From NCBI RefSeq assembly GCF_003597675.1, contig NZ_CP030830.1, positions 248,001 through 312,000 of the forward strand: DNA of 64,000 bases. Reading direction: 5' to 3'. Under the pieces are notes generated by a model, which worked only from the letters and a program-made list of their open reading frames with translations, ran no database searches and was not told the DNA's origin. The first letter of the stretch is position 1. The number at the start of each line of letters is the position of its first letter. Shown piece by piece: positions 3,358-23,620 of the stretch. A program made the position numbers and the translations under genes. Origin of the DNA: Neorhizobium sp. NCHU2750. GTDB taxonomy: Bacteria; Pseudomonadota; Alphaproteobacteria; Rhizobiales; Rhizobiaceae.

Positions 3358-3433
3358 ACCATACTCAAGTTTTGTCGTTCGCCTTCAGGGATGCAAATTT
3401 CATGCCGTCGATTGCGGTAGGTGAAAATGCCCA

Positions 3434-3466: not shown

Positions 3467-3542
3467 ATCCCCTATTGTTCCTGCGAGTTTTCTAATCAAA
3501 AAGAGGCCTTCAAAAAAGGCAGTCAGCTCAGGGGACCGCGTA

Positions 3543-4676: not shown

Positions 4677-4707
4677 TCCGGCGCAGACGCCAAAAGGGAC
4701 CGAAACA

Positions 4708-8262: not shown

Positions 8263-8289
8263 TCCAGAGCTTTTCGAACGGATAGAAGA

Positions 8290-9372
8290 ATGCGTGAATT
8301 CGAATTCGATGAATTGGAGGCGCTGGCTATTGGCGCCGGCGTTCTTGGCACCGGGGGCGGCAATCACCCCGATCTGGAACTCATGTGCGCCCAGGCCGAA
8401 TATCGTCGCGGCCGTCGGGTAACTCTGATCGATCCGCAGGAGCTTGCCGATGACGCCCGCGTTGCCGTTGTCTGCATCATGGGGGCGCCTCTCGTCACCA
8501 AGGAGCGTCTGCCGGAACCGGTCGCCATATGCAAGGCCGTGCGGTTGATGGAAGCCCATTGTGGCAAGCCCTTCGATGCGATCATGTCGATCGAGATCGG
8601 TGGCGAAAATGCGTTCTTCGCCATGCTTGCCGGCATGGAACTCGGTCTGCCGGTTGTCGATGCCGACACGATGGGCCGAGCGTTCCCGGAGGCGCAGATG
8701 GCGAGTTTCGCAATCCGCGGCCTGTCTGTCGCACCCTTTGCGATCGCCGATATCCGCAACAATTCCGTGCTGATACCCGAGGCGGAAAACGCCACCCGCA
8801 TCGAACGAATCGGCAGAAAGGCCGTGGTCGAACTCGGCTCGATTGCCGGCACCTGTGCTGCCCCGCGGTCCGGTCGTGAGGTTAAGGATCATGCAATCCT
8901 GAATTCGGTCGGGCGTGCGCTGAAAATCGGCAATGCGGTTCTTGCAGCCCGACACTCGGGACATGACCCGGTAGATGCGGTTCTTGATGCGGAAGAGGGC
9001 GCGCTTCTCTTCACCGGCAAGGTTCAGGATGTAAGCCGCCGCACGACCGATGGCTTCGTGCGTGGCAAGGCGGTGCTCGCGGGCCGCGGCGGTTTCGAGG
9101 GGCAGATGCTGGAGATCGACTTCCAGAACGAATTTTCGGTCGCGCGGCTCGATGGTCGGCTACTGGCCTGCGTACCCGACCTCATCACCGTGCTGGACGA
9201 AGAGAGCGCCGAGGCGATCGGAACGGAAGTGCTGCGTTACGGGCAGCGCGTCGTCGTCGTCGCCTTGCCGGCCGACCCGATCATGACGAGCGCTGAGGGG
9301 CTTACGGTCGTCGGCCCGCGCGCCTTCGGCTTCGATTTCGATTACACGCCCTTTACGGAGCAGCCCGCATGA
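8290..9372 (+). CDS. DUF917 family protein
   Basis: The 360-residue protein matches the DUF917 family by its N-terminal glycine motif GTGGGNHP (residues 20-27) and its overall length. Family members are commonly encoded beside hydantoinase/oxoprolinase-like proteins. Its stop overlaps the start of exactly such a gene here by four bases. Its biochemical function is not established; it may act as a subunit or regulator of the partner enzyme. It lies 27 bases behind the transporter ATPase and in the same direction, so it is co-transcribed with import. Confidence 0.85.
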   Translation: MREFEFDELEALAIGAGVLGTGGGNHPDLELMCAQAEYRRGRRVTLIDPQELADDARVAVVCIMGAPLVTKERLPEPVAICKAVRLMEAHCGKPFDAIMSIEIGGENAFFAMLAGMELGLPVVDADTMGRAFPEAQMASFAIRGLSVAPFAIADIRNNSVLIPEAENATRIERIGRKAVVELGSIAGTCAAPRSGREVKDHAILNSVGRALKIGNAVLAARHSGHDPVDAVLDAEEGALLFTGKVQDVSRRTTDGFVRGKAVLAGRGGFEGQMLEIDFQNEFSVARLDGRLLACVPDLITVLDEESAEAIGTEVLRYGQRVVVVALPADPIMTSAEGLTVVGPRAFGFDFDYTPFTEQPA

Positions 9373-10907
9373 AGCGCATCGGCATAGACGTTGGCGGAAC
9401 CAACACGGACGCGGTGCTCCTTGATGGCGACAGGATACTGCGGTCGATCAAGACAGCGACCACATCCGACGTGATGAGCGGCATCAGCACGGCGATGGCC
9501 CATATTCTCGGCGACGACCAGGCATTCGAGGCCGGCGGTGTCCGCGCGATCATGATCGGCACGACCCATTTCACCAATGCGGTGATCGAGCGCCGCGGCC
9601 TGTCGAAGGTGGCCGTGATCCGTATCGGCCTGCCGGCCGCCCACAGCATCCTGCCGATGCAGGCCTGGCCGGACGATCTTCGGCGCGAGGTGGAGGGCCC
9701 TGTCTTCCTCGTGCGTGGCGGCCACGAATTCGACGGACGCGAGATCGTGCCCTTCGATCGCGAACACATGCAGGCGATTGCCTCGGAGATACGCGACAGC
9801 GGCGTCAAGGCGGCGGCGATCACGGCGGTCTTTTCGCCCCTGACCTCCGCCTGCGAGGAAGAGGCTGCGGCTATCCTGACGCAGATGGTGCCGCATATCA
9901 GCATCACCCTCTCCAGCCAGCTCGGACGTATCGGCCTGATCGAGCGGGAAAACGCGACGATCATCAACAGTGCGCTGCATGGGCTTGCGCGCGAGACGGT
10001 CTCGGCGTTTGAGGCGGCAATCAGCAAGAGCGGCATCGCGGCCCCTCTCTATCTCACCCAGAATGACGGTACGGTGATGCAGGCGTCGCATGCTGCTCGT
10101 TTCCCGGTTCTCTGCTTTGCCTCCGGTCCCACCAACAGCATGCGCGGCGCGCGGATGCTTTCGGGCCTCGATGAAGCCATCGTTCTCGATGTCGGTGGAA
10201 CCACCACCGATGCAGGCATGCTCGTCTCCGGCTTTCCGCGTGAGGCGAATTCCAAGGTCGACATCGGCGGCGTATCGACTTTCTTCCGCATGCCTGATGT
10301 CATCGCCATCGCGCTTGGCGGCGGCACGATCGTCGATGCGGAAAATGGTCTCGTCGGCCCGAAGAGTGTTGGATACCTGATCTCGGAAAAGGCAAGGGTC
10401 AAGAATGGCGACACGCTGACCCTGACCGATTTTGCAGTTCGCGCAGGGCGGATGGAATTCGGCGACGCCGCTCTTGTCGCTGATCTGCCCAATACACTGG
10501 CTGATCACGTCGATGCTTGGAGCCGGCAGAGGCTTGCAGATCTCGTCGATCGGATGAAGACCAGTGCTGCCGATGCGCCGGTCATCGTCGTCGGCGGAGG
10601 AGCCTCGCTGGTCCCCGACGAATTGCCGGGCGTCTCGCGTGTCATCAAGGTTGAACATGCCGGAGTGGCCAATGCTGTCGGCGCGGCGATGGCACAGGTC
10701 AGCGGCGAATGCGACCAGGTTTTCTACGACATTGGGCGCGAGGAGGCGCTTGAAAGGGCGCGGAAAATCGCCGAGCGGCGTGCGATCGATGCGGGCGCGG
10801 ATATATCTAGTTTGGAACTACTCGATATCGAAGACATCCCGATGTCCTACATACCCGGCAATCCCTTGCGCGTGCGATTGCGCGTAATCGCTGACCTCGC
10901 ATTGTAG
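9369..10907 (+). CDS. Hydantoinase/oxoprolinase family protein (HyuA-like)
   Basis: This 512-residue cytoplasmic protein has the actin/Hsp70-like nucleotide-binding signatures of the family: GIDVGGTNTDAVLLDGD at the N-terminus and LDVGGTTTDAGML near residue 275. Members hydrolyse cyclic amides such as 5-oxoproline or hydantoins with ATP, usually with a second subunit. No HyuB-type partner is present; the DUF917 protein, overlapped by four bases, takes that place. The C-terminal SYIPGNPLRVRLRVIADLAL region is typical of the DUF917-linked subgroup. It ends the operon. Confidence 0.88.
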   Translation: MKRIGIDVGGTNTDAVLLDGDRILRSIKTATTSDVMSGISTAMAHILGDDQAFEAGGVRAIMIGTTHFTNAVIERRGLSKVAVIRIGLPAAHSILPMQAWPDDLRREVEGPVFLVRGGHEFDGREIVPFDREHMQAIASEIRDSGVKAAAITAVFSPLTSACEEEAAAILTQMVPHISITLSSQLGRIGLIERENATIINSALHGLARETVSAFEAAISKSGIAAPLYLTQNDGTVMQASHAARFPVLCFASGPTNSMRGARMLSGLDEAIVLDVGGTTTDAGMLVSGFPREANSKVDIGGVSTFFRMPDVIAIALGGGTIVDAENGLVGPKSVGYLISEKARVKNGDTLTLTDFAVRAGRMEFGDAALVADLPNTLADHVDAWSRQRLADLVDRMKTSAADAPVIVVGGGASLVPDELPGVSRVIKVEHAGVANAVGAAMAQVSGECDQVFYDIGREEALERARKIAERRAIDAGADISSLELLDIEDIPMSYIPGNPLRVRLRVIADLAL

Positions 10908-10909
10908 TG

Positions 10910-10961
10910 CCTTAGCGAGCTGGATCCCACCCCTTAGCGAGGACAGGTGTGGAACACCTGT
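10910..10961. repeat. Direct and inverted repeats after the hydantoinase operon
   Basis: CCTTAGCGAG occurs twice (10910-10919 and 10932-10941), 22 bases apart. It is followed by a perfect inverted repeat ACAGGTGT-GGA-ACACCTGT at 10943-10961. No T-run follows, so this is not a standard intrinsic terminator. It could be an operator or a mobile-element remnant. Confidence 0.5.
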
Positions 10962-10970
10962 TGGAGGGTA

Positions 10971-11099
10971 ATGACCGTCGCAGTTCGGAAAGCTTCAGAA
11001 ATTGTGGTGCGAGAGTTCTGGTTACATCAAGAGCTTAACGCGGGCTATGCTCTAACCCTTCCAATAAGCTCGCGACCAGGGCCTTGCCTTAGACGATGA
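10971..11099 (+). CDS. Possible 42-codon ORF with strong ribosome site
   Basis: An ATG at 10971 is preceded by TTGGAGGGTA, a near-ideal ribosome-binding site, directly after the inverted repeat at 10943-10961. The frame (MTVAVRKASEIVVREFWLHQ...) closes at TGA 11097-11099 and overlaps the 3' end of the opposite permease gene by 48 bases. I do not recognise the product. It may be the truncated start of a lost gene rather than a functional peptide. Confidence 0.3.
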   Translation: MTVAVRKASEIVVREFWLHQELNAGYALTLPISSRPGPCLRR

Positions 11100-11852
11100 T
11101 TTCCATGGGGTCAGCAGCCATTCCGTGAATACGACAAGCAAGAAGGCGACGACCCCGAGCGCGGCGAGGAAGACGATCGCGGAGAACGTACCGGCGGTAT
11201 TGAGGCGGGAATTGGCCTGCAGCAGATAGGCGCCGATCCCCCCGCTTGTGGATGCAGTCCACTCGGCGATAACCGCGCCAGTTACCGAGAACGTTGCGGA
11301 TAGCTTAAGTGCGGAGAACAGCGGTGTATAGGTTGCCGGAAGTTTCACGTGCCTGAAAATCGAAAGGCGTGAGGCACCCATGGATCTGACGAGATTGAGG
11401 ATGTCCTTGTCAACCGAGGACAGGCCGTCGAGCACGTTCACGACAACGGGAAAAAAGACAACCAGCGCTACAATGACAAGCTTTGGTGCCAGTCCGAAAC
11501 CGAGCCATATCGTCAGTGCGGCAGAAATAGCTATGATCGGGACAGCCTGGCTTGCGATTAGAACCGGATAGAGGATGCCACGCACCGGACCCGATGAATC
11601 CATCAATATTGCAAAGATGAAGCCTGCGCCGGCACCAATGATAAAGCCGAGCAGAAACTCCATGAATGTCATGGCGAAACCGGCGACGAGCGTTTGCCAG
11701 TCTTCAACTATATGCATGGCAACCGCTTGCGGTGACGGCATGACGTAACGAGGGATTGCATAGAAATCGACAGCGAAAGCCCAGAATGCCACGACCAAGG
11801 CAAGGGCGAGGACTGGATACAGAACACGCAGCAAGGGAGAGGAATTCGGCAT
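11052..11852 (-). CDS. ABC transporter permease (SsuC/TauC/ThiX type)
   Basis: The roughly 266-residue inner-membrane protein is the single permease of an NMT1/nitrate-sulfonate-type importer and is expected to homodimerise. It has about six membrane helices and the EAA loop RSMGASRLSIFRHVKLPA. The ATG at 11852 lies one base beyond the ATPase stop (TGACATG), so I reject the in-phase start 16 residues further upstream inside the ATPase gene. It is the last gene of the leftward operon that begins at 15684. The substrate is inferred only from neighbours (ureido, amide or pyrimidine-like compounds). Confidence 0.88.
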   Translation of the reverse strand: MPNSSPLLRVLYPVLALALVVAFWAFAVDFYAIPRYVMPSPQAVAMHIVEDWQTLVAGFAMTFMEFLLGFIIGAGAGFIFAILMDSSGPVRGILYPVLIASQAVPIIAISAALTIWLGFGLAPKLVIVALVVFFPVVVNVLDGLSSVDKDILNLVRSMGASRLSIFRHVKLPATYTPLFSALKLSATFSVTGAVIAEWTASTSGGIGAYLLQANSRLNTAGTFSAIVFLAALGVVAFLLVVFTEWLLTPWKSSSKARPWSRAYWKG

Positions 11853-11853
11853 G

Positions 11854-12648
11854 TCAGGCCTCCGTTGCCTGGATGCACGGTGCCTCGCCATCCTTGTCAT
11901 AAATGAGATGCATGACGCGTTCCTTGATCTGGCTGAATAACGGGGTGGTCAAACAGGCCACCGGTCGAGGTCGATCGATCGGCACGTCGATTATTTCGCG
12001 GATGCGGCCGGGGCGCGGTGACATGACGATCACGCGATCGGCAAGGAAGATTGCCTCGTCGATATCGTGTGTAACGAACACGATGGTCCGCTTCTCCTGT
12101 TCCCAAACGCTAAGCAGCCATTGCTGCATCGAAAAGCGCGTTTGGGAGTCCAACGCGCCGAAGGGTTCATCTAGCAATAGAACATCGCGATGCATGGCGA
12201 GTGTTCTCATCAGCGCCACTCGCTGTCTCATGCCGCCGGATAGAGCTGACGGAAAATGATTTATGAAATCGCCGAGGCCATAACGCTTTGCGAGTGCAAC
12301 GCCTGCTTCCCTTTGAGCCTGACCGGCCTTGCCTTTCAACAGATCACCGAGGACGATGTTTTCGAGCACAGTGCGCCAAGGAAGCAGCAAGTCCTTCTGC
12401 AACATGTAACCGACTTCGCCTGCACGCGCGGTGACGTCTCGTCCGTCGATGGAAACCTTTCCGGCGGTTGGCCTGAGAACGCCTGCGATGATGTTGAACA
12501 TCGTGCTCTTGCCGCAGCCGGACGGGCCGACGATGGAAACAAACTCGCCTTCTTTGATGGAAAGGTCAGTCGGAGCCAGCGCGAGCGTGTCACCGAAACG
12601 CTGCGATATGCCCAACAGGTCGAGCTTGTTAGAGGTAGCCTCAGTCAT
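11854..12648 (-). CDS. ABC transporter ATPase (SsuB/TauB type)
   Basis: The 264-residue ATPase drives the importer. Visible motifs are Walker A GPSGCGKST (about residues 40-48), signature LSGGMRQRVALMRTLA, Walker B VLLLDEPFGALD and the H-loop FVTHDIDEAIFLADRV, all typical of the nitrate/taurine/thiamine-precursor subfamily. The compact length, without the TOBE domain seen in the four polyamine-type ATPases in this window, fits that group. It is separated from the permease start by one base and lies 24 bases beyond the M24 peptidase. Confidence 0.9.
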   Translation of the reverse strand: MTEATSNKLDLLGISQRFGDTLALAPTDLSIKEGEFVSIVGPSGCGKSTMFNIIAGVLRPTAGKVSIDGRDVTARAGEVGYMLQKDLLLPWRTVLENIVLGDLLKGKAGQAQREAGVALAKRYGLGDFINHFPSALSGGMRQRVALMRTLAMHRDVLLLDEPFGALDSQTRFSMQQWLLSVWEQEKRTIVFVTHDIDEAIFLADRVIVMSPRPGRIREIIDVPIDRPRPVACLTTPLFSQIKERVMHLIYDKDGEAPCIQATEA

Positions 12649-12672
12649 GGAAACGTTACCCTTGGCATCGTG

Positions 12673-13389
12673 TCAAAGGACAGTACAGACATGACGGCCG
12701 AACCAGACAAGGTCTTCAACCTTGACGGCGATGTCGTCGCGAGCGGCGAAAGGTTCAATCGCCCACGCACCCCACATCGGGCTGTCATTGCCTGCATCAA
12801 TGAAGTGATGGAGATAAGCGGCACCCGGTGCCAATGAATGGCCGATATTGCCAAGTTGATCGAGCAATACGAAACCTTCCGAAACGAGTTTCTCATGGCT
12901 GATCGCGAAAAGCTCACTTGCCGTCATGCCGGGACGGCAGAACGCAAGCGTCTCACGATGGATGCGCTCCAGATCTGCCAGAGCCTTGTCCGCCTGGGGA
13001 TAGTCGCCAATGATCTTACAGCGCGTACAGTCGCCCCAGAAACCAACGGCCGTGATGGGATGCACATCAAGCATCAGTACATCCCGGTCCGCGGCTTTCA
13101 GATTTGAGGGATGTTTGGTCGGAAAGCAGATTTTTGTGTTTTCTCCCAAGCCGACATTGGTGATCGTCCAGACATGTTCGACATCGTTTGCCCGCAGAAA
13201 ATCGCTGACGGCAAGATCAACGGCCTCCTCGGTTACACCTGGACCAATCTTTGCAAAGCCGGCTTCGATTGCACCCTTCGCCAGCGCCTGTGCATGGATG
13301 AGTCCGGGCGGCGGAGCTTCCGATACGTCCGCACCTGGCCGATATGGCCAGGCGGGCATCACTCGTCGTTCAAGCGAATTCCCAGCCAT
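12673..13389 (-). CDS. M24-family metallopeptidase / Xaa-Pro-type hydrolase
   Basis: This 238-residue protein is a stand-alone catalytic (pita-bread) domain without the N-terminal domain of classic prolidases. All five metal ligands appear in order: the two Asp of MLDVHPITAVGFWGDCTR, His in NIGHSLAPG, Glu in WAIEPFA and Glu in VKVEDLVWFG. It should therefore be an active two-metal hydrolase acting on a small peptide-like or amide substrate. It is encoded between the binding protein (4 bases away) and the ATPase of the same transporter, so its substrate is probably what that transporter imports. Confidence 0.85.
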   Translation of the reverse strand: MAGNSLERRVMPAWPYRPGADVSEAPPPGLIHAQALAKGAIEAGFAKIGPGVTEEAVDLAVSDFLRANDVEHVWTITNVGLGENTKICFPTKHPSNLKAADRDVLMLDVHPITAVGFWGDCTRCKIIGDYPQADKALADLERIHRETLAFCRPGMTASELFAISHEKLVSEGFVLLDQLGNIGHSLAPGAAYLHHFIDAGNDSPMWGAWAIEPFAARDDIAVKVEDLVWFGRHVCTVL

Positions 13390-13393
13390 CGGA

Positions 13394-14383
13394 TCATTTC
13401 CCGAGATAGGCGTTGCTGAAATAAGTCGATGGCGCCTGCGGGGCCTTTACGACGTCGAATTTCTTCAAGGCCTCGAGCAGTTTGGTCCAGTCAGCCTCCT
13501 GGTTGACGAGGAGATCATCACCGATCTTGCCGAATTGCGGAACGGTGTCTGTCCATTGCTGCGTGATGAAGGCCTCGTCATAGGCCTTGCCATATTTTTC
13601 CTTGAACGCATCGACTGATTCCTGCGGATGCTCCGCAGCATAGGCGATGCTCTTTGCTGTCGCGCGCAGGAATGCCTTGGCCTGATCCGGGTGTTCCTTC
13701 AGCCAGGTGTCATTGCCTGCCAGCATGAAGATTGGGGTATTCGGTACGCCGTGTGCGGTTGCCGGCAGGAAGGACGCCGTCTGGTTGCCTGATGTCTTCA
13801 TCGCTGTGCCTTCGGCATTTGTGATGCCGGTGATCGCGTCGACCCGGTTCTGAAGAAGAAGCGGGACAGTGTCGTCCGTCGCAGCAACAGTTTCGATGTC
13901 GTTTAGCGTGAGGTTAGCATCGGCCAGCATCATGCTCAGCTGGGCCTTGGTCCAGGCGTCATTGTAGATGCCAATCCGTTTGCCTTTTAGTTCGGCAACC
14001 GTCAGCGGCTTACCTTCGGCGCTGAGGATGCCCCAGTTGTTGCCGGTGCCATACCGGCCGATGGCCGTGACTGGTGCTTCTTCTGAACGCGCGAAGATGA
14101 CGTCCATGACGGTCGTGAAGGCGACCTGCGCGCGACCGGTCCCGAGAAACTTCATCGTATCGGCCACAGTTGGCGGTACGACGATGTCGAGCTCAAGGCC
14201 TTCTTCCTTGTAGAATCCCTTCTTCGAGCCGATGATCCACGGAATCCAGAAGCCATCCGGCGTCGGCCATTCCTGCACGAACGTGAGCTTGGTGAGCTCC
14301 TGTGCAGAAGCGCCAAGCGGTGCGCTGATCGAGAATGAAATAGCAGCTGCGGCTGCGAGAAGCATGCGACGTGTCAGATTCAT
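13394..14383 (-). CDS. NMT1/SsuA-type ABC transporter binding protein
   Basis: The 329-residue exported protein has an N-terminal signal (MNLTRRMLLAAAAAISFSIS, cleavage near ASA-QE at about 28). The body follows the NMT1/THI5-like periplasmic fold, with WIIGSKKGFYKEEGLELDIV and GRAQVAFTTVMDVIFAR as family landmarks. Its start overlaps the M20 hydrolase stop by four bases (ATGA). Family members bind thiamine-pyrimidine precursors, sulfonates or nitrate. The linked hydrolases point to a carbamoyl- or amide-bearing ligand here, but this is inference. Confidence 0.88.
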   Translation of the reverse strand: MNLTRRMLLAAAAAISFSISAPLGASAQELTKLTFVQEWPTPDGFWIPWIIGSKKGFYKEEGLELDIVVPPTVADTMKFLGTGRAQVAFTTVMDVIFARSEEAPVTAIGRYGTGNNWGILSAEGKPLTVAELKGKRIGIYNDAWTKAQLSMMLADANLTLNDIETVAATDDTVPLLLQNRVDAITGITNAEGTAMKTSGNQTASFLPATAHGVPNTPIFMLAGNDTWLKEHPDQAKAFLRATAKSIAYAAEHPQESVDAFKEKYGKAYDEAFITQQWTDTVPQFGKIGDDLLVNQEADWTKLLEALKKFDVVKAPQAPSTYFSNAYLGK

Positions 14384-15684
14384 AATGCTGTTCCCATCTT
14401 TTTTTGGTTGCCGGTTTGCACTTCGGTTTCATGCAGGCGCGCGATCTTTGTGATCGCATTCAGTGTCGACTGAAGCAACGTGGCGGCTCCAGCCACGCAG
14501 TTCACAGGCTCGACGAATTCCTTCTCATTGTGGCTGATGCCATTGCGGCATGGCACAAAGATCATTGCCGAGGGGGCCAGAGGTTGCACCGACAGAGCAT
14601 CATGGAACGCTCCGGAAACCATTCGCTTCACCGAGAACCCGAGTTCGATGGCCGCCTCCTCGATGCAGGAAACAATCTCCGGATCGAACTCCGCCGGCGG
14701 CATGTCGAAAATCCGGTCCAGATGAGCCGTACAACCGTTTGACCGCGCATATTTGTTCAATGTGGACTGTAGCAACTCCTCGATAGTGTCGAGGTATTCT
14801 GTCGATGGATGGCGAATATCGATATTCGCCGTTGCTACTGCGGGAATAGCGTTGATGGATGCAGGCTCGACCGCAATGCGCCCGACAGTGAATCGGGCAT
14901 CGGCATCGCGGGGCATGATGGTGGCCTGCAACTCGGCCAACGACTGGATCAGCGTCGCTAGAGCATCACGCCGCGAAGTGAGCGGCGTCGTCCCCGCGTG
15001 CCCGGTTTCTCCTTGAATGCGAACATCGAACCAGCGCGTGCCCTGTATGCTGGACACCGCGCCTATCTCTACATTTTCCGCCTCCAGGATGGGGCCCTGC
15101 TCGATATGCAGTTCAAGATAAGCTGCTATTGGTTTGCCAAGCCCGACCACTGAAACCTCCGGAAGTGCGGCGAGCGTCGCAGCTATCTCGGATGACAGTG
15201 GCTTGCCTTCGCCGTCCTTGAGTGTCTCGATATCTTTCGGAAGGCTACCGTCTGCAAAAGCCCGTGACCCCATTGTGCCGGGGGCGTAGCGGCTTCCCTC
15301 TTCATTCGACCAGATGACAAGTTCAATCGGCAGCGAATAGTCAAGGCCGGCATCGGCGATCGTTTCGATAACCTCGAAAGCGGCAAGTGAGCCGAGCGCA
15401 CCGTCAAAACGGCCACCGCTCGGCTGGCTATCGAGGTGACTACCAATCAAGACCGGTTTCTCATGCTCGCGTCCAGGAAAGGCGATGAACAAATTGGCCG
15501 CCTGATCTTGTGTGACTTTCAGCCCTCTGGAGAGTGCAAGATCGGCAAGTTTGCCACGAGCTTCGCGATCCTCCATCGAAAAGGCCTGACGATTGACGCC
15601 ACCGGCCGCAGTGCCGCCGATCGTCGCAAACTCAGCGATACGGCGCACAAGCCTTTCGCCGTCAATGCGGAGCCTTTTCGTCAT
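14380..15684 (-). CDS. M20-family amidohydrolase (N-carbamoyl-amino acid / allantoate amidohydrolase type)
   Basis: The 434-residue cytoplasmic enzyme is of the HyuC/AllC group, which removes carbamoyl or formimino groups from amino acids and ureides. Metal-binding blocks are clear: His and Asp in IGSHLDSQPSGGRFDGALG, the Glu pair in WSNEEGSRYAPG, His in LELHIEQGPIL, and the terminal His in FHDAL / GISHNEKEFV. It is the first gene of the leftward operon and lies 67 bases from a perfect palindrome (15751-15769) that I assign to the divergent XRE-cupin regulator. Substrate identity is not determined. Confidence 0.9.
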   Translation of the reverse strand: MTKRLRIDGERLVRRIAEFATIGGTAAGGVNRQAFSMEDREARGKLADLALSRGLKVTQDQAANLFIAFPGREHEKPVLIGSHLDSQPSGGRFDGALGSLAAFEVIETIADAGLDYSLPIELVIWSNEEGSRYAPGTMGSRAFADGSLPKDIETLKDGEGKPLSSEIAATLAALPEVSVVGLGKPIAAYLELHIEQGPILEAENVEIGAVSSIQGTRWFDVRIQGETGHAGTTPLTSRRDALATLIQSLAELQATIMPRDADARFTVGRIAVEPASINAIPAVATANIDIRHPSTEYLDTIEELLQSTLNKYARSNGCTAHLDRIFDMPPAEFDPEIVSCIEEAAIELGFSVKRMVSGAFHDALSVQPLAPSAMIFVPCRNGISHNEKEFVEPVNCVAGAATLLQSTLNAITKIARLHETEVQTGNQKKMGTAL

Positions 15685-15750
15685 CGAGTTTCCGTTCTTG
15701 TATCTCGTGCGGTGATGTTTTCACCCGCGCGTTCAGGTCTTATGTACTAT

Positions 15751-15787
15751 AATTCAAGAGACTTGAATTTATGTCAATCCTATTGAA
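15751..15787. promoter_or_regulatory. Tandem TCAA-N5-TTGA operators
   Basis: AATTCAAG-AGA-CTTGAATT (15751-15769) is a perfect 19-base interrupted palindrome. A second site, GTCAATCCTATTGAA (15773-15787), keeps the same TCAA-N5-TTGA core. The two centres, 15760 and 15780, are 20 bases apart, about two helical turns on the same DNA face. They lie between the divergent hydrolase operon (15684) and regulator gene (15860). A third copy stands before 16549. They are probable binding sites for the XRE-cupin protein. Confidence 0.7.
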
Positions 15788-15859
15788 ATACGATTTGGAG
15801 GATTTATTGTAGGCATCATGTAAATTGCCGACGGGGCGCGCGCCCCTCATGAGGACGAT

Positions 15860-16465
15860 ATGAAACCGAACAAAATAGAAGCCGACGCTGAAAGCGGCCA
15901 AGCCGCCAGCGGTAAGCTCGGTACGCGCCTCAAGCTTGCGCGCCAGATGCGAGGGTTAACGCTGAAAGCTCTTGCCGACGCTGCGCATTGCTCGGAGAGC
16001 CTCCTCTCCAAAATTGAAAATGGCAAAGCCTCTCCATCACTGCCAATGCTCCATCGTCTAGTTGAGGTTCTTGATACGAATATCGGCTGGATGTTCGAGG
16101 AAACGCATGGAGAAGAGGGAATAATCTTCAGGGCGGGCACGAGGCCTCTCATCGCTCTTGATCCTTTACGGCGCGGCGACGGGATAACGCTTGAACGCAT
16201 TATCCCCTACTCGCCGGGCCATCTGCTTCAATGCAATATCCATCACATCGAGAAAGGGGGCGAGAGTGCGGGTGCCATTCGCCACGATGGTGAAGAGGTG
16301 GGATATGTTCTTGCCGGACAGGTGGAGTTGAGCGTTGGGGAGCAAAGCTTCAATCTTACGGTCGGCGACACATTCGTCTTCGATTCAAACCTGCCGCATC
16401 ACTACCGCAATATCGGCGAAGAGCGTGCCAGTATATTTTGGGTGAACACACCTCCGACGTTCTGA
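15860..16465 (+). CDS. XRE-cupin transcriptional regulator
   Basis: This 201-residue regulator joins an N-terminal Xre/Cro helix-turn-helix (about residues 20-78: GTRLKLARQMRGLTLKALAD, then CSESLLSKIENGKASPSLPM) to a C-terminal small-molecule-sensing cupin_2 domain (about 125-197, with GEEVGYVLAGQVEL and LPHHYRNIGEERASIFWV). This PuuR-like architecture usually represses catabolic genes and releases DNA when the cupin binds the inducer. The gene lies between the two arms of the cluster, and TCAA-N5-TTGA palindromes stand in front of both arms and of itself, consistent with autoregulation. Confidence 0.9.
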   Translation: MKPNKIEADAESGQAASGKLGTRLKLARQMRGLTLKALADAAHCSESLLSKIENGKASPSLPMLHRLVEVLDTNIGWMFEETHGEEGIIFRAGTRPLIALDPLRRGDGITLERIIPYSPGHLLQCNIHHIEKGGESAGAIRHDGEEVGYVLAGQVELSVGEQSFNLTVGDTFVFDSNLPHHYRNIGEERASIFWVNTPPTF

Positions 16466-16474
16466 GTGAATTTT

Positions 16475-16490
16475 ATTCAAGTAACTTGAC
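16475..16490. promoter_or_regulatory. Third TCAA-N5-TTGA operator
   Basis: TTCAAG-TAA-CTTGAC at 16476-16490 repeats the core of the tandem sites at 15751-15787 and lies 58 bases before the start of the PF07090 gene. Its presence here suggests that the rightward arm has its own promoter under the same XRE-cupin regulator. Confidence 0.65.
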
Positions 16491-16548
16491 AATGATGAAT
16501 TTGCATTGAATTTTGCCCGCAATGCCAATCATCGATCAGGAAATGTAC

Positions 16549-17319
16549 ATGACCGGAAAAAAAATCCTCCTCGCTGGAGAGTCCTGGGTTTCGACCGCAA
16601 CGCATATTAAAGGCTTCGACCAGTTTCCGACCGTGACCTATCACACGGGTGCCGACGAGCTCCTTTCGGCACTCAAGGGCGGTCCCTACGACGTTAAGTT
16701 TATGCCTGCACACGAAGCCCAGAGGGACTTTCCGCAGTCGATTGAAGCGCTTCGCGACTACGAAGCGATCATCCTGTCGGATATTGGTGCTAATACGCTC
16801 CTACTTCACCCGGATACCTGGATACATTCCAAGACGACGCCGAACCGGCTCAAGCTCCTCAAGCAGTACGTGCTCGAAGGCGGCGCGCTTCTGATGTTCG
16901 GCGGCTACTACAGCTTTCAGGGCATCAATGGTGGTGCGCGATATCGCAACACGGCCGTCGAAGAGGTTCTTCCGGTTTCCTGTTTGGCATTCGACGATCG
17001 GGTCGAGGTCCCCGAAGGTTTCACGCCGGCACTGACGGCTGATGAGACACACCCCATACTCGCAGGACTTGGTTCCGATTGGCCGGTTCTGCTTGGCTTC
17101 AACGAGGTAGAGCTTAAGCCAGGAGCTGAAGTCCTTGCTACGGTCGGCGACGAATATCGTGACCTGCCGCTTCTCGTGACTGGAAAATTCGGAAAAGGGC
17201 GCTCGGTCGTCTGGACGTCAGATGTCGGGCCACATTGGTTGCCGTCCCAGTTCATTTCCTGGGAAGGCTACAAACCCTTGTTTGAACAAATGCTCGATTG
17301 GGCGACAGCCCGGGACTGA
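16549..17319 (+). CDS. PF07090-type glutamine amidotransferase-like protein
   Basis: The 256-residue protein resembles the putative glutamine amidotransferase family PF07090 (class I GATase-like fold): KKILLAGESWVSTATHIKGF at the N-terminus, DYEAIILSDIGANTLLLHPD in the middle, and ALLMFGGYYSFQGINGGARY at the nucleophile-elbow position. The elbow reads GGYYSF, without the catalytic Cys of true class I amidotransferases, so classical glutaminase activity is doubtful. The ATG at 16549 is preferred to 16513 or 16543 because AGGA stands at the right distance. It is preceded by a regulator operator and followed after 17 bases by the C-N hydrolase, so the two are probably co-expressed. Confidence 0.78.
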   Translation: MTGKKILLAGESWVSTATHIKGFDQFPTVTYHTGADELLSALKGGPYDVKFMPAHEAQRDFPQSIEALRDYEAIILSDIGANTLLLHPDTWIHSKTTPNRLKLLKQYVLEGGALLMFGGYYSFQGINGGARYRNTAVEEVLPVSCLAFDDRVEVPEGFTPALTADETHPILAGLGSDWPVLLGFNEVELKPGAEVLATVGDEYRDLPLLVTGKFGKGRSVVWTSDVGPHWLPSQFISWEGYKPLFEQMLDWATARD

Positions 17320-17336
17320 GCAAAACGGAGTTCGTC

Positions 17337-18215
17337 ATGCCGAAGCGTATTAAGGAAGCAGCCGTAACTGTCGCCAGTATCCAGATGGAGCCGGTTTTCG
17401 GTGAAACAGAAAAGAACGTCGCCCGCACCATCGCTTTGATGGAGGAGGCGGCCTCCAAGGGAGCGGAGCTCGTTGTCCTGCCCGAGCTCTGCAACACCGG
17501 ATACGTCTTCCAGAGCCGCAAGGAAGCAAGGGCTCTCGCCGAAGAGATCCCCGCTGGCCCAACGACACGCGCCTGGATAGAGGCGGCCAAGAGACTGAAC
17601 CTTCATGTCGTCGCCGGGATTACCGAGAAGGATGGTGTGAAGCTCTATAACTCAGCCGTCGTCATCGGCCCGGACGGATTGATCGGGCGCTACCGCAAGG
17701 TCCATTTGTGGGGTGACGAGGCGCTTTACTTCACTCCCGGAGATCTCGGCTTCCCGGTCTTTGATACGCACCTCGGCCGGATCGGCTGCCATATATGCTA
17801 TGATTGCTGGTTCCCGGAAAGCTTCCGGCTCGCAGTTCTTCAAGGTGCCGAGATCATGTGCGTCCCGACCAATTGGGTGCCGATTCCGGGACAAGATCCG
17901 AACCGCGAAGCCATGGCGAACATCATCGTCATGGGAGCTGCGCACAGCAATTCCCTTTTTGTCGTCGCGGCAGATCGTGTAGGCACCGAGCGTGGACAGC
18001 CATTTATCGGCCAAAGCTTGATCGTGGCGCAGACCGGTTGGCCGGTTGCCGGCCCGGCCAGTGCCGACAAGGAAGAAATCCTGATTGCCGAGATTAACCT
18101 CGCGGATGCTCGGCGGAAACGCAACTGGAACGATTTCAATCAGGTTCTGAGAGATCGCCGTCGCGACGTGTACGATGAAATGCTTGGGAGTGCTCACACA
18201 CCTGGCTGGCATTGA
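17337..18215 (+). CDS. Carbon-nitrogen hydrolase (nitrilase superfamily)
   Basis: This 292-residue cytoplasmic enzyme has the Glu-Lys-Cys triad of the nitrilase superfamily: Glu50 in VVLPELCNTGY, Lys121 in GRYRKVHLW, and Cys154 in HICYDCWFPES. Relatives include N-carbamoyl-D-amino acid hydrolases, ureidopropionases and aliphatic amidases, which is consistent with the M20 N-carbamoyl-type hydrolase across the regulator. The ATG at 17337 lies 17 bases after the upstream stop. It probably ends the rightward arm of the XRE-cupin regulon. I cannot tell which amide is cleaved. Confidence 0.88.
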   Translation: MPKRIKEAAVTVASIQMEPVFGETEKNVARTIALMEEAASKGAELVVLPELCNTGYVFQSRKEARALAEEIPAGPTTRAWIEAAKRLNLHVVAGITEKDGVKLYNSAVVIGPDGLIGRYRKVHLWGDEALYFTPGDLGFPVFDTHLGRIGCHICYDCWFPESFRLAVLQGAEIMCVPTNWVPIPGQDPNREAMANIIVMGAAHSNSLFVVAADRVGTERGQPFIGQSLIVAQTGWPVAGPASADKEEILIAEINLADARRKRNWNDFNQVLRDRRRDVYDEMLGSAHTPGWH

Positions 18216-18279
18216 TAAGGTCTTCGTGTGGTCTCTAGCTGATTGCAGATCTAGAAATCTTCCTGGAAAGGGTGTCTTC

Positions 18280-18300
18280 GGTTCACATCCCTTCAAGAGC
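18280..18300 (+). repeat. 21-base repeat also found at 830-850
   Basis: GGTTCACATCCCTTCAAGAGC here matches 19 of 21 bases of the sequence at 830-850. A shorter gapped relative, GGTTACATCAAGAGC, occurs at 11020-11034. All three are in non-coding or relic DNA. The function is unknown. Confidence 0.5.
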
Positions 18301-18337
18301 TCAAGCTATCAGCGCTCGAAAGCTCCACGCTCAATAT

Positions 18338-18721
18338 CTAGTGAGGAATATTCGCGGACGGATAAAGCGCCGCGCCAACCTTCTGAGCCGCAGCCGCCAG
18401 GCGTTTATCCCTCGTCCACAAGCTTGATCGTCGATCGAGGAGGGTTGACGTTAACAGATGTGCGTCAGTATAGCCGATCCCCATGCTAAAGATCGAATAA
18501 CGATCAATGACGGTCATTACCTCTGCATGGGTCGCGACCACTGTCTCACGCTGAGCTGCAAGAAACGCTAATACCGCATCCCGATCTCGCAGACTGCCTA
18601 GGGCCAGTTCGCCGACAACGAAAGGGTGGCAAAGCAACCGATCATCTCCGATGATTTTGGTCAGCTCCGAGTCGCCGTGTCGAAAATGATCAATCCAGAT
18701 CGAGCTATCGACAAGGATCAC
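18338..18721 (-). CDS. vapC: PIN-domain ribonuclease toxin VapC
   Basis: The 127-residue protein is the toxin of a type II toxin-antitoxin pair; VapC proteins are Mg-dependent endoribonucleases. The acidic PIN residues are at Asp5 (LVDSSIWID), Glu38 (VVGELALG), Asp86 (GYTDAHLL) and Asp105 (WTRDKRL). Its start overlaps the antitoxin stop by four bases, the usual translational coupling. The length is typical and no damage is seen. Confidence 0.9.
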   Translation of the reverse strand: MILVDSSIWIDHFRHGDSELTKIIGDDRLLCHPFVVGELALGSLRDRDAVLAFLAAQRETVVATHAEVMTVIDRYSIFSMGIGYTDAHLLTSTLLDRRSSLWTRDKRLAAAAQKVGAALYPSANIPH

Positions 18722-18918
18722 TTGCTCACTTCGCTCCGGCGGCGAGGTGCTACCTCGGCCTCGGGCATCGTCCCGCCAAGGGCGATCAACCGTTTACCGG
18801 ATTCGACTCGTACCAAAGTCTCGAGTGCTTGACGCACAAGAGCCGCCGTTTCCTTTGTGCCTGTAAGGGACTTGGCCCGTTCCATGAGGTTGTCGTCGAG
18901 ACTGATAGTAGATCGCAT
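18718..18918 (-). CDS. vapB: VapB-type antitoxin
   Basis: This 66-residue ribbon-helix-helix protein starts MRSTISLDDNLMERAKSLTG and continues into the helix that would dimerise (ETAALVRQALETLV). The flexible, basic C-terminus is expected to wrap the VapC active site. It is the first gene of the pair, upstream of vapC, and is preceded by a perfect 14-base palindrome at 18948-18961 for likely autorepression. Confidence 0.88.
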   Translation of the reverse strand: MRSTISLDDNLMERAKSLTGTKETAALVRQALETLVRVESGKRLIALGGTMPEAEVAPRRRSEVSK

Positions 18919-18947
18919 AGGTAGCTCCAGATGTTGAAAAGCTCATA

Positions 18948-18961
18948 GCACCAATTGGTGC
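18948..18961. promoter_or_regulatory. Palindromic operator of vapBC
   Basis: GCACCAATTGGTGC is a perfect 14-base palindrome, 30 bases upstream of the vapB start. VapB or VapBC complexes typically bind such sites to repress their own promoter. Assignment is by position and symmetry. Confidence 0.6.
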
Positions 18962-19017
18962 GATAATCTACGCTTCTTGAGCCGACCATTGCCATCACGT
19001 CTATCGCGGGTCGCCGG

Positions 19018-19505
19018 TTCGATTCCCAATCAAATGCTTGGGATTAAACATCGATCGATAGACCGTCGGCAGTTCACCCCCGACGACGCCTATGACGGCA
19101 ACCCGACCTATGATGCCGTCACCAGGCACAGCGTCGACGCTTCGGTAGTTATCCCGCCCCGCGCCAATGTGGAGGGACGGCCAGACAGCTATCCCTCACA
19201 TCAGCGAGACCATTATATTGCGGCGATCAATGCCGGTGGCCGGATGACGTGGCAAGTCGCCACCGGCTACGGCAAACGCTTACTGGTCGAGACCGCGATC
19301 GGACGTTACAAATCGATCATCGGGCGGCAGCCGTGGGCGAGCTCATTCGCGGCACAGCGGACGGAAGCCGCCCTCGGCTGCGTTGTCCTCAATCGCATGC
19401 TGGCCTACGCACGCCGGAAGTCCGTCCGCTCCAAGACCGTCACCGTATATTCCTGGCATCAAAGATGGAAGTTCGACCTTTCATCAATCGATGTACCAGC
19501 GCCCG
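19018..19505 (+). pseudogene. IS5-family transposase fragment (C-terminal part)
   Basis: The frame encodes the last third of an IS5-family DDE transposase: RRQFTPDDAYDGNPTYDAVT, then VVIPPRANVEGRP, ATGYGKRLLVETAIGRYKSI and FAAQRTEAALGCVVLNRMLA. ETAIGRYKSI holds the terminal catalytic Glu. The N-terminal two thirds and the terminal repeats are absent, so it cannot move itself. It separates the vapBC pair from the RpiR-controlled operon. Confidence 0.8.
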
Positions 19506-19587
19506 GCAATAGCGTTAAATCCGCCGATGGCACGGCGCTTGCTTTTGTGTGAATGTCGCGTATGCTACATATGATTTATAAAATGTA

Positions 19588-20502
19588 ATGGATGCAACAT
19601 TGCGGACCGCAGATCGGATTAAGTCTCATTTCGGGGGCCTTACGAAAGCTCAGCAGAACATCGCTCAATACATTGTGGAGCGGTCGGATGCTGTCGCATT
19701 CATGACTGCCAAGCAGCTTGCCGTTGCCGTTGCGCAGAGCGATGCAGCCGTAGTCCGCTTCTCCAAGGCTGTTGGCTTCGCGGGCTTTCTTGAGATGCGC
19801 GAGGCGTTGCGAGGGGAGATGCTGGACGTCGAAGGGTCGAGCGGGATGGCCCAGAAGGCTGGCGGTTCGACAACCATCAGCGTGCGTGAGGAAGTGCAAG
19901 CCATCTCCACAGAGCTCGTCGAGCGCACCGGAGAGATGAATTCGGGCGAGGCCTTCGAAAAGGTTGTTGATGCCCTTGTTGATGCCCGCAGAATTCTGGT
20001 CAGCGGCCATGGCACGTCTTATCCATTGGCAGCCTATGTCTCGATGCACCTCAACCAATGCCTGGACAAGGTGGAAATCCTCAATGTCGACCAGGGAGAT
20101 CTCGCCGAGCGCTTTCGTTCTATCGGCCCGGGTGATGTCGTCATCGGCATCGGTTACGTCCGCTATCTGCCGTTTACAGTCGATATTCTCACGGTCGCTA
20201 AGCAATTGGGAGCAACCGTCGTCGCCATTACAGACAAGCTGACCTCGCCTCTCGCGCATGTCGCGGACCATTCGTTGTTCGCCGCCCGCAGTACGTCGGC
20301 GATCTGGTGGAGCCAGGCCGGAACCTTCGCAATCGCGGACGCCCTGACCGCCATGTGCATGGCCAAGGATTCGCAGAGCACGGAGCGACTGCGGCAGGCC
20401 GACGAGATGCTGGCAAAGCTCGGCCTGTGGAACCGGGGTCTGCCGTCGAACCGATCGCTCAACGTCTCTGCCGGCGACACCGACGCAGACGTGTCGGGCT
20501 GA
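19588..20502 (+). CDS. RpiR/MurR-family transcriptional regulator
   Basis: The 304-residue protein has the N-terminal HTH_6 domain (about 1-77: LTKAQQNIAQYIVER, AKQLAVAVAQSDAAVVRFSK) and a C-terminal SIS domain (about 125-265: DARRILVSGHGTSYPLAAYV, VVIGIGYVRYLPFTVDIL). SIS domains of this family sense phosphosugars or related ligands. The next gene, the transporter binding protein, starts 40 bases later in the same direction, so it probably controls that operon. The Shine-Dalgarno site is weak. Confidence 0.88.
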   Translation: MDATLRTADRIKSHFGGLTKAQQNIAQYIVERSDAVAFMTAKQLAVAVAQSDAAVVRFSKAVGFAGFLEMREALRGEMLDVEGSSGMAQKAGGSTTISVREEVQAISTELVERTGEMNSGEAFEKVVDALVDARRILVSGHGTSYPLAAYVSMHLNQCLDKVEILNVDQGDLAERFRSIGPGDVVIGIGYVRYLPFTVDILTVAKQLGATVVAITDKLTSPLAHVADHSLFAARSTSAIWWSQAGTFAIADALTAMCMAKDSQSTERLRQADEMLAKLGLWNRGLPSNRSLNVSAGDTDADVSG

Positions 20503-20542
20503 TACCCAGGCAATTTTCACCGATCCGACAAGGGGAACAAGA

Positions 20543-21637
20543 ATGAACAAGAAATCCGATGAACTATTCAGCATGGCATCAAGCCGGCGCAGCTTTCTGA
20601 AGTCTGCCGCCGTGCTCGGCACCGGCGCCGCGGGGCTCTATGCACCCTACGTGCGCGCAGAAGCCGGACAGGTCGTGGTGCGTGGCCTGGGCGGCGCCTA
20701 TCAGGACGCGATGACCAAGGCGGTGTACGAGCCCTTCACCGCGGAGACGGGCATCAAGGTTGCCGTCCTTCCGGCGACTGCCGCGCAGGTTCGCGCTATG
20801 GTTGAGGCTCGCCAGGTGCGCATCGATGTCGTTGACCTCGTCGATGTCGCCCTGATGTCGCTTGACCGCATCGGCGCGCTTCAGCCGATTGCCTATGACA
20901 AGATGAAATTCACCAAGCCGGACGACATCCAATCGACGGTTCGTCGCCCCAACATGGTCGGCAACCTCTTCTTCGCGACGGTGCTTGCCTATAATACTGA
21001 AGCGTTCGCGACGGGAACCCATCCGCGCGGCTGGAAGGAATTCTGGGACGTGCAGAAGTTTCCGGGCGCGCGCACGCTAGCAGACCAGAAGTCGGGTGCT
21101 GCAGAACTGGAATTCGCGCTGCTTGCCGAGGGCGTCGCCAAGGATGCTCTCTATCCGCTCGACATTGACCGTGCCTTCGCCTCGCTCGACAAGATCAAGC
21201 CCAGCATCGTCAAGTGGTGGGATACCGGTGCTGTGTCCGCGCAGATGCTTGAACTCAAGGAAGCCGTCCTCGGTGGCATCTGGAACGGCCGCGCCCAGGC
21301 GCTGATCGACGGCGGCGCCCCCATCGCCATTGACTGGACGGAAGCCAAGCAGCAGGTTCAGTATTGGGGCGTTGTCAAGGGCGCGGCCAATTCCGAAAAT
21401 GCCCAGCTTTTCATCGATTTCGCTCTCCAGCCTGAGGTGCAAGGCAAGCTGACGCAGTTCATCGCCTATGGTCCGACCAATACCAAGGCATTCGCCCATG
21501 TGCGCAAAGAGGATCTGGCCAAGCTTCCGAGCAATCCCGAGTTCTTTGCCAACACCTTCGAGCAGAGCCCCGAATGGTGGACCGACAATTTGACGACCGT
21601 CGGCTCCCGCTGGCAGTCGTGGATACTGAGCAAGTAA
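20543..21637 (+). CDS. Polyamine-type ABC transporter binding protein (second system)
   Basis: This 364-residue exported protein has a Tat signal (SSRRSFLKSAAVLGTG, cleavage near VRA-EA at about 40). The mature part has the PotD-like motifs VYEPFTAETGIKV and LYPLDIDRAFASLDKIKP. The equivalent stretches in the protein encoded at 34985 are strikingly similar, so the two systems are paralogous. It heads a four-gene transport operon under the RpiR regulator. The ligand is unknown. Confidence 0.88.
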   Translation: MNKKSDELFSMASSRRSFLKSAAVLGTGAAGLYAPYVRAEAGQVVVRGLGGAYQDAMTKAVYEPFTAETGIKVAVLPATAAQVRAMVEARQVRIDVVDLVDVALMSLDRIGALQPIAYDKMKFTKPDDIQSTVRRPNMVGNLFFATVLAYNTEAFATGTHPRGWKEFWDVQKFPGARTLADQKSGAAELEFALLAEGVAKDALYPLDIDRAFASLDKIKPSIVKWWDTGAVSAQMLELKEAVLGGIWNGRAQALIDGGAPIAIDWTEAKQQVQYWGVVKGAANSENAQLFIDFALQPEVQGKLTQFIAYGPTNTKAFAHVRKEDLAKLPSNPEFFANTFEQSPEWWTDNLTTVGSRWQSWILSK

Positions 21638-21647
21638 TCGAGCGATC

Positions 21648-22775
21648 ATGAGTGAACTGGTAATGGAAACAGGCTCAGAACTCCAACTCTCCGGCGTGAC
21701 CAAGCTTTACGGCCAGTCTGCCGCAGTGAAGGATCTTGATTTGCACGTCCAGCCCGGCCGTTTCGTCACCCTTCTGGGAGCAAGCGGTTCGGGCAAGACG
21801 ACGACGTTGATGATGCTGGCGGGGTTCACGTTCCCGAATTCCGGACAGATCCGTATCGGCCGCAAGGACGTTACCGGCCTGCCGCCGGGTAAGCGGAATC
21901 TCGGGGTCGTTTTCCAGAACTACTCGCTTTTTCCTCATATGACAGTGGCCCAGAACCTCGCATTTCCGCTGGAAATGCGGGGGAGATCCAAGGCCGATAT
22001 TGCGCGTCTCGTAGGCGGGACGCTCGACATGGTCCATCTCGGCAAGATGGCCGACCGCTATCCGCGTCAACTGTCGGGCGGCCAGCAGCAACGCGTCGCA
22101 CTGGCCCGGGCCATCATCTTTGAACCGCAGGCGCTGTTGATGGACGAGCCGCTCGGCGCACTCGACAAGAACCTGCGCGAGCACATGCAGATCGAGATCA
22201 AGCGCCTTCACGCCTCTCTTGGTGCGACGATCGTCTTAGTCACCCACGATCAGGAAGAAGCGCTGACCATGTCGGACAAGATTGCCGTCATGCAGGATGG
22301 AAGGATTGCCCAAATAGCCGATCCCAAGACGATCTACGAGCGGCCCGATAGCCGTTTCGTTGCGAGCTTCATCGGCCAATCCAACTTCCTCAAGGGTATC
22401 ATAGAAACCAGCGGCAATGGTGCAGCATTGCGCCTTGCTGATGGCAGCGCTATTCCCTGTAACGGCCGGCCGGACCTCAAGGCCGGCGAGGCGGTACTTG
22501 CGGTTCTGCGGCCGGAGCGGATAGTTTTCGGCGGCCAGGGGTCTGGCGGGCGGGAATCCGGCGTGCCGGGCGCCGGCCTCAAGGGGCGTGTCAGCGACGT
22601 CCTCTATCTTGGCCATACGATCAAGATTTCCGTCACGTTGTCCGACGGTACCGAGATCATGACGCAATCGAGTGCCGGGACCTTCGGCGGCGCGGCTCCG
22701 GAGACAGGCAGCGACGTGACCATCGGCTGGGGTTCTGAACCGCTCTGGTGCGTCGCAGCGGGAGCGGCTGCATGA
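21648..22775 (+). CDS. ABC transporter ATPase (PotA-type, second system)
   Basis: The 375-residue ATPase has Walker A GASGSGKTT (about 46-54), signature LSGGQQQRVALARAII, Walker B LLMDEPLGALD and switch VTHDQEEALTMSD, then a TOBE domain. It starts 11 bases after the binding protein, and its stop overlaps permease 1 by four bases. Gene order here (binding protein, ATPase, permease, permease) differs from the first and fourth systems. Confidence 0.9.
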   Translation: MSELVMETGSELQLSGVTKLYGQSAAVKDLDLHVQPGRFVTLLGASGSGKTTTLMMLAGFTFPNSGQIRIGRKDVTGLPPGKRNLGVVFQNYSLFPHMTVAQNLAFPLEMRGRSKADIARLVGGTLDMVHLGKMADRYPRQLSGGQQQRVALARAIIFEPQALLMDEPLGALDKNLREHMQIEIKRLHASLGATIVLVTHDQEEALTMSDKIAVMQDGRIAQIADPKTIYERPDSRFVASFIGQSNFLKGIIETSGNGAALRLADGSAIPCNGRPDLKAGEAVLAVLRPERIVFGGQGSGGRESGVPGAGLKGRVSDVLYLGHTIKISVTLSDGTEIMTQSSAGTFGGAAPETGSDVTIGWGSEPLWCVAAGAAA

Positions 22776-23620
22776 GCAGCGTAAACACATCCGATAGATC
22801 GAGGATCTGGCTCCTGCTGTTGCCGGCGCTCGCAGTGCTGTGTGTGTTCTTCCTTTACCCGCTCGGCGCGATGCTGTCGCGCAGCATCTACGATCCCGGC
22901 TTCACCCTGCATCACTACCAGCGGCTGCTGGCAGAACCGGCATATCTCCAGGTGCTCCTGGCGACATTCGAAATTGCCGGCCTAGTCACCGTGGCATCGC
23001 TTGCCCTCGGCTACCCGCTCGCCTACCTCCTTTCGCAGGTCAAGCCGCGCCTCTCGGGGCTCTTGATGATCATCGTCATCGTGCCATATTTCACAAGCGT
23101 TCTGGTGCGTACCTATGCGTGGATGGTCATTCTCGGCTCGCAGGGCATCGTCAACCAGTTCCTCCTCTGGGCCGGGATCATCACCACCCCGCTGTCAATC
23201 ATGTATACGCGCACGGCGGTGACGATCGGTATGACCTACATCATGCTGCCCTATATGATCCTGGCACTCTACAGTGTCATGCGCGGTATCGACACCGGCC
23301 TGCTGCTGGCGGCCGAAAGCCTTGGTGCAGGCAGGGCGCGAGCCTTCTGGCGCATATTCGCGCCGCTGTCGCTTCCCGGTGTCGCCGCCGGATGCCTTCT
23401 GGTCTTCATCCTCGCGCTGGGTTTCTTCATCACGCCGGCCCTGATGGGCAGCCAGCAGGACAGCATGATTTCTATGCTTGTGGAAAGCCAGGTGGAAACC
23501 TATTTCGACTGGGGTTTCGCATCCGCGCTTGCCACCCTGCTTCTGATCTGCACCCTCGTGCTGTTCATCATCTATGAACGTTTTGTCGGGCTCAATCGGC
23601 TATTCGAGGCCAAGCTATGA
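22772..23620 (+). CDS. ABC transporter permease 1 (second system)
   Basis: The 282-residue inner-membrane protein has six predicted helices and the EAA loop AAESLGAGRARAFWRIFAPL. The ATG at 22772 overlaps the ATPase stop (ATGA); the in-phase start 24 bases earlier lies inside the ATPase and is less likely. Its stop overlaps permease 2 by four bases. PotB-like, pairing with the next gene product. Confidence 0.9.
   Translation: MSSVNTSDRSRIWLLLLPALAVLCVFFLYPLGAMLSRSIYDPGFTLHHYQRLLAEPAYLQVLLATFEIAGLVTVASLALGYPLAYLLSQVKPRLSGLLMIIVIVPYFTSVLVRTYAWMVILGSQGIVNQFLLWAGIITTPLSIMYTRTAVTIGMTYIMLPYMILALYSVMRGIDTGLLLAAESLGAGRARAFWRIFAPLSLPGVAAGCLLVFILALGFFITPALMGSQQDSMISMLVESQVETYFDWGFASALATLLLICTLVLFIIYERFVGLNRLFEAKL

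Follow-up and report, generated by a model that had tools for sequence, protein, structure and literature searches.

The XRE-cupin regulator gene considered here lies beside a leftward operon headed by an M20-family hydrolase gene and ahead of a PF07090-nitrilase gene pair, and similar palindromic boxes are found on either side of it (Table 1). Coordinates refer to the window, i.e. the whole 64,000-nt stretch of Neorhizobium sp. NCHU2750 DNA that was analysed. It is located on C4, a 380-kb contig of the 6.35-Mb genome, which has seven contigs. The question is whether these boxes are operators of the adjacent regulator, and whether they form a regulon of their own, as had been claimed from the window sequence (the original prediction).

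Table 1. Boxes, putative promoters and genes of the XRE-cupin locus (operator and promoter assignments are predictions)
Feature	Position	Strand	Sequence or evidence	Weight-matrix score
Candidate operator box 1	15751..15769		AATTCAAG-AGA-CTTGAATT	28.4
Candidate operator box 2	15774..15786		TCAATCCTATTGA; 20 bp from box 1	14.5
Candidate operator box 3	16477..16489		TCAAGTAACTTGA; ahead of PF07090 gene	26.1
Degenerate box 4	16497..16509		GAATTTGCATTGA; right half-site only, 20 bp from box 3	<8
Sigma-70-like promoter of M20/ABC operon	15749..15777	-	-35 TTGACA (15777..15772) in box 2; -10 AATTAT (15754..15749) at edge of box 1; spacer 17	
Sigma-70-like promoter of regulator gene	15783..15810	+	-35 TTGAAA (right half of box 2); -10 TATTGT; spacer 16	
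PF07090-nitrilase promoter	16486..16514	+	TTGACA-N17-AATTTT, by analogy with ortholog consensus	
XRE-cupin regulator, 201 aa	15860..16465	+	Pfam HTH_31/HTH_3 and Cupin_2 above cutoff	
M20-family hydrolase (hydantoinase/carbamoylase family amidase TIGR01879), first gene of leftward operon	14380..15684	-	Profile matches	
Remaining leftward operon: NMT1-type binding protein, M24 peptidase-like protein, ABC ATPase, ABC permease	11052..14383	-		
PF07090 (putative glutamine amidotransferase-like) gene	16549..17319	+	Pfam, E 4e-112	
Carbon-nitrogen hydrolase (nitrilase superfamily) gene	17337..18215	+	Pfam	

At the amino acid level, the regulator has the N-terminal XRE-type HTH and the C-terminal cupin that define XRE-cupin local repressors. 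The HTH spans residues of about 21-78, with the recognition helix CSESLLSK at 44-51, and the cupin about 111-197. A predicted structure of modest confidence (mean pLDDT 64.9), used solely for helix and strand limits, has helices in 21-78 and strands in 111-197 and has CSESLLSK as the beginning of the third HTH helix (46-53). Residues C44-K51 are at least 98% conserved in 81 orthologs. The cupin residues H142, E146 and H180 do not vary among 29 aligned relatives, which is compatible with metal binding by the cupin. PuuR (NCBIfam NF007408) was rejected as an assignment; the full-length match of 80.3 bits is far below the curated cutoff of 211 bits.

Other genes surround the locus. Window positions 3372-10907 carry a run of ABC transporter genes that includes an Asp/Glu/hydantoin racemase-family gene (4630-5439), an S-Me-THD-like gene (8290-9372) and a hydantoinase-A-like gene (9369-10907); these genes may constitute a hydantoin or thiohydantoin operon of their own, one that lacks an operator box. 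The S-Me-THD and hydantoinase-A genes (8290-10907) were rejected as targets, as no window box scoring at least 8 is nearby. On the other side, 18338-19552 contains an isolated minus-strand PIN-domain gene (18341-18721) and, after it, an open frame that has no Pfam match and by eye resembles a piece of a transposase. Positions 19588-24408 form a second transport operon with a different regulator, where an RpiR-type gene (HTH_6 + SIS) directly precedes genes for a binding protein and an ABC transporter.

Box 1 was originally described as a perfect 19-base palindrome. It consists of two perfect 8-base arms around a 3-base centre, AGA, which is not itself palindromic. The second core, 20 bases along, and the third site are present as predicted; box 4 and the overlap of the boxes with promoter hexamers are additional to that prediction. 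The exact sequence TCAAN5TTGA is found four times in the window against 0.86 expected, and at least four copies occurred in 1 of 100 shuffles. Three of the copies are boxes 1-3. The fourth is at 63697, and the assertion that the sites occur nowhere else in the window is thus not strictly right.

The original prediction proposed a scan for TTCAAGN3CTTGAA with up to two mismatches and took frequent occurrence elsewhere as evidence against a regulon. In the window this loose box has three matches, one of them at 49496, against 1.93 expected (at least three in 33 of 100 shuffles), and in the whole genome it has 273 matches against 201 for a reversed control. The loose single box is therefore not specific; it is formally frequent elsewhere, and the scan alone would not support the claim. 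The exact tandem TCAAN5TTGA-N7-TCAAN5TTGA occurs once in the 6.35 Mb, as boxes 1-2. With up to three mismatches the tandem is found at 11 places in the genome vs 7 in the control, and boxes 3-4 are among the 11. The informative feature is the 20-bp tandem rather than the single box.

Eight single-box places from the loose scan of the same genome were fetched; six have a box scoring at least 12, and four of these six are inside long frames. The other two, at C1:858606 (score 21.8) and C4:98845 (score 17.9), are outside frames of 150 aa, and because of these two intergenic boxes the regulon may not be strictly local. By eye, the genes at these places look unrelated. The box at C1:858606-858620, TTTCAATAGTCTTGAAA, is a possible further target.

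Conservation was assessed in the best 80 of 371 relatives of the regulator (73-84% identity). At -450 to +950 of the gene start, the exact single site is present in 78 of these 80 loci and the exact tandem in 65; outside this interval the same loci have 22 sites in 1.38 Mb, or 0.022 per 1,400 bp. Successive sites less than 200 bp apart are separated by 20 in all 65 cases. Of the two loci without an exact site, L038 differs in gene order and has, between its divergent genes, a box that scores 12.4; L047 stops at a contig end, with a tandem near the end of another contig of the same genome. The motif is thus kept in orthologous clusters, where its loss would have spoken against the original prediction. 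The two 8-base arms are able to pair, and inverted repeats may also represent RNA hairpins, terminators or chance; this conservation, folding energies no better than those of shuffles (z -1.07 and 0.05) and the lack of an Rfam match in 8000-19000 render such an origin extremely improbable.

Among 397 genomes of the order, 20 have the exact tandem, 25 have an ortholog of the regulator (E up to 1e-60) and 19, one of them the window's genome, have both (Fisher p 3e-26, in a test that ignores kinship). No genome has two exact tandems; there is one per genome where it is present. The tandem is found without an ortholog in one genome (1/372), on a 3.2-kb contig with the same box repeated. Six genomes have an ortholog and no exact tandem: G085 has one single box, G134, G165, G260 and G313 have two each, and G300, whose ortholog has 58% identity, has no box within 1.5 kb and two, 21 bp apart, about 7.6 kb upstream. 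Within the genus, an ortholog-level match (77% identity) was found in only 3 of 35 genomes searched. Position, footprint and co-occurrence link the sites to the XRE-cupin gene, in keeping with the original prediction.

The orthologs are found in two types of operon. Type A, represented by the window and six other loci (L005, L006, L012, L018, L019 and L038), places the regulator next to genes for an NMT1-type transporter, an M24 protein and a nitrilase; in L006 and L038 an M20 or PF07090 match was not found. Type B comprises 72 of the best 80 loci of 371 and is defined by PF07090 at 4.6-5.0 kb downstream. Its order is regulator, tandem, sugar-type binding protein, ATPase, permease, phosphotriesterase-family protein, PF07090, PfkB kinase and BtpA, a list checked in full for L008, L169, L214 and L215 and elsewhere through matches to window proteins. 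M20 is also found in 56 of the 72; it was not matched in 13 Mesorhizobium loci, nor in three type B loci with little downstream sequence. In L169, L214 and L215, M20 and PF07090 genes share the operon with those for the sugar-type transporter, PfkB kinase and BtpA. The type B operon may serve to degrade a sugar joined to an amide or ureido group. In a tree of the regulators, which has many weak forks, contains one mistranslated row (L161, locus not oriented) and was not used for evolutionary history, the window and the six type A loci together require two changes, and no bootstrap tree has one.

The boxes overlap putative promoters. A scan of 15600-16600 finds two sites, the leftward M20 promoter (10 of 12 matches) and the rightward regulator promoter (9 of 12, weaker evidence than for the other promoters), where shuffles give a mean of 0.7. 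The original placement of the sites at three promoters agrees with the scan for these two; the PF07090-nitrilase promoter was missed by it, matches the -10 in only 3 of 6 positions and is assigned by analogy with the orthologs. Sixty-three distinct tandems give the consensus TTCAAGtnaCTTGACAaraATTCAAGTcTCTTGAATtaT (weaker positions in lower case). It reads as a promoter, TTGACA, 17 bases and AATtaT, where box 1 provides the -35 TTGACA and box 2 reaches the -10, and the M20/ABC promoter has the same layout. A G seven bases past the last T of the consensus, present in 51 of 63 tandems, is likely to be the transcription start point.

In type B, TTGAC[A/G] stands 5 bp ahead of box 2 in 72 of 73 promoters (71 with TTGACA; L030 was missed) and AATNNT follows at spacer 17 in 69 of the 72, counts that leave aside the six type A loci and L047 and come from a search pattern that itself demanded TTGAC and likeness to box 2. 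Several loci have one box decayed and its -35 hexamer retained, and conservation of the operator is therefore separable from that of the promoter. Just 17 of the 74 ortholog loci that are not type A have a box upstream of the regulator gene itself, and autoregulation is therefore not general.

As judged by sequence only, a palindromic site is present in the core promoter of adjacent genes, as in XRE-cupin local repressors. From the computed sites, their footprint, the overlap with promoter-like hexamers, the co-occurrence and the helix-operator association described below, we infer binding, repression, cooperativity and a ligand. The boxes are very probably operators of the XRE-cupin protein encoded at 15860-16465, a putative local repressor, which would exclude RNA polymerase until the cupin takes up a ligand from the C-N hydrolase pathway. 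Each palindrome would be bound by one dimer. Two dimers 20 bp, or about two helical turns, apart would sit on the same DNA face over the -35 and the -10, and the pair would keep RNA polymerase away from the promoter. Boxes 1-2 would act on the divergent M20-operon/regulator region, and box 3 with the remnant box 4 on the PF07090-nitrilase promoter. The repressor would be released once the cupin binds its ligand. The most likely ligand would be a substrate or intermediate of the pathway in which the M20, PF07090 and nitrilase enzymes act on an amide or ureido compound.

The sign of regulation is not certain, because NceR of Neisseria, counted among XRE-cupin regulators in the part of the DbuR paper at hand (PMC12724383), activates one gene, ompA, and is said to repress another, according to the available part of its description (PMC10470515). 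The protein could accordingly bind the boxes and activate, or switch between activation and repression. We consider this unlikely, since the boxes overlap both promoter hexamers, which favours occlusion, and all Pseudomonas XRE-cupin proteins whose regulons are known act as repressors, as far as the accessible text of PMC7901475 goes.

The reading as operators of the XRE-cupin protein can be extended to distant relatives. Stretches of 11-20 kb around these relatives were scanned with a weight matrix derived from the tandem boxes of the 80 loci only. Among relatives with the helix CSESxxSK (45-63% identity), a site scoring at least 15 is present at 12 of the 15 loci and at all four of a later batch (16/19), and at 18 of 19 with a cut-off of 13.5; these counts omit the orthologs L168, L169, L214 and L215, each with sites, and L185, which overlaps L181. 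L171 has no site, and L173 and L182 have weak sites only. Other related helices have a site of at least 15 in 2 of 6 loci, and in the later batch L219 has none and L221 one (score 19.0). Control loci with other helices have a site in 1 of 20, and the difference from CSESxxSK has a p of 4e-7, with helix classes written down after the loci had been seen and an effective n reduced by akin loci (L162/L163; L165/L216/L218/L220; L175/L217). The single control site (L194, score 17.7) is in an open frame 249 bp upstream of its regulator gene. With forty column-permuted symmetric matrices, a score of 15 was reached in 0.175 of 15 loci on average and in one at most. Shorter stretches around 29 paralogs have a box of at least 10 in one case, L112 (28% identity, one stop codon in the reading frame), where a single box of 17.8 is at L112:786.

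In the annotated loci L162-L165, the site is just ahead of the first gene of a same-strand run that contains the regulator, 5-8 kb from it. An M20 relative is found in the fetched stretch of 13 of 24 related loci (two being orthologs, and L181 and L185 sharing one) vs 1 of 20 controls, and in 5 of 6 of the later batch. L174 (helix CSEGFISK; 11884 and 15335) and L181 (helix CSESFISK; 6565 and 11869) each have two separate strong boxes, which suggests two target promoters.

These findings bear on whether the boxes belong to another regulator that happens to control the same operons. Inverted repeats of such size are common operators, but the XRE-cupin gene defines the locus set, the sites track this gene through two operon types and follow the recognition helix into other operons, and the tandem stands without an ortholog in just 1 of 372 genomes; a different regulator is accordingly very unlikely. 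The XRE-cupin protein remains the preferred candidate, and the claim of a motif confined to one regulon needs modification: the motif is linked to the ortholog but is also common to a wider XRE-cupin subfamily in other operons. It is fairly probable that this subfamily of Alpha-, Beta- and Gammaproteobacteria, often on large plasmids and marked by the helix C-S-E-S-x-x-S-K, keeps the operator ATTCAAG-N3-CTTGAAT while the operon is exchanged, such that regulator, operator and target can be paired from sequence. The frequent M20/carbamoylase-type hydrolase suggests sensing of ureido or N-acyl amino compounds. If so, pairing works with an operator 5-8 kb from the regulator gene, and scans confined to regions just upstream of regulator genes would miss such distant operators.

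The general type of switch, the XRE-cupin local repressor, is already known. The available text of PMC7901475 describes P. aeruginosa proteins (PauR, PsdR and others) that repress adjacent genes from core promoters. Like the window locus, they have HTH and cupin domains, palindromes in core promoters, targets that adjoin the regulator and are mostly enzymes and transporters, and a patchy distribution. The window differs in its operator and in a tandem at a fixed 20 bp fused to both hexamers; that portion of the paper mentions no tandem. The PsdR operator, TTAAG-N5-CTTAA, as given in the accessible part of PMC10965056, is likewise a 15-bp palindrome with AAG...CTT arms, whereas the window boxes, TTCAAG-N3-CTTGAA, have three central bases, an extra C/G step per arm and TCAA/TTGA arms. 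DbuR of Pseudomonas putida is also a divergent XRE-cupin repressor; the part of PMC12724383 at hand reports that it covers a 20-bp palindrome and the -10 and protects 44 bp. In contrast to the window, its operator is AATTCTCATATATTAGAATT and its pathway that of D-amino acids.

The original prediction called the regulon undescribed, and in the open-access literature searched no description of this regulon or motif was found. The motif may nevertheless stand, as an unassigned cluster, among the 223 XRE motif clusters upstream of regulator genes reported in 2025, to go by the part of that study available (PMC12565409).

The helix-operator rule is wider than expected. Three palindromes have led to a testable rule by which a short helix signature predicts the DNA site, and hence the target operon, of an uncharacterised regulator, including cases in which several genes separate the regulator from its target promoter. 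The pairing of boxes at a fixed distance of 20 bp and their fusion to both hexamers make a compact arrangement that lends itself to measuring cooperativity. For many transport and C-N hydrolase operons of soil bacteria the rule supplies a predicted switch, and repressor release is a possible read-out for finding the substrates of such operons.
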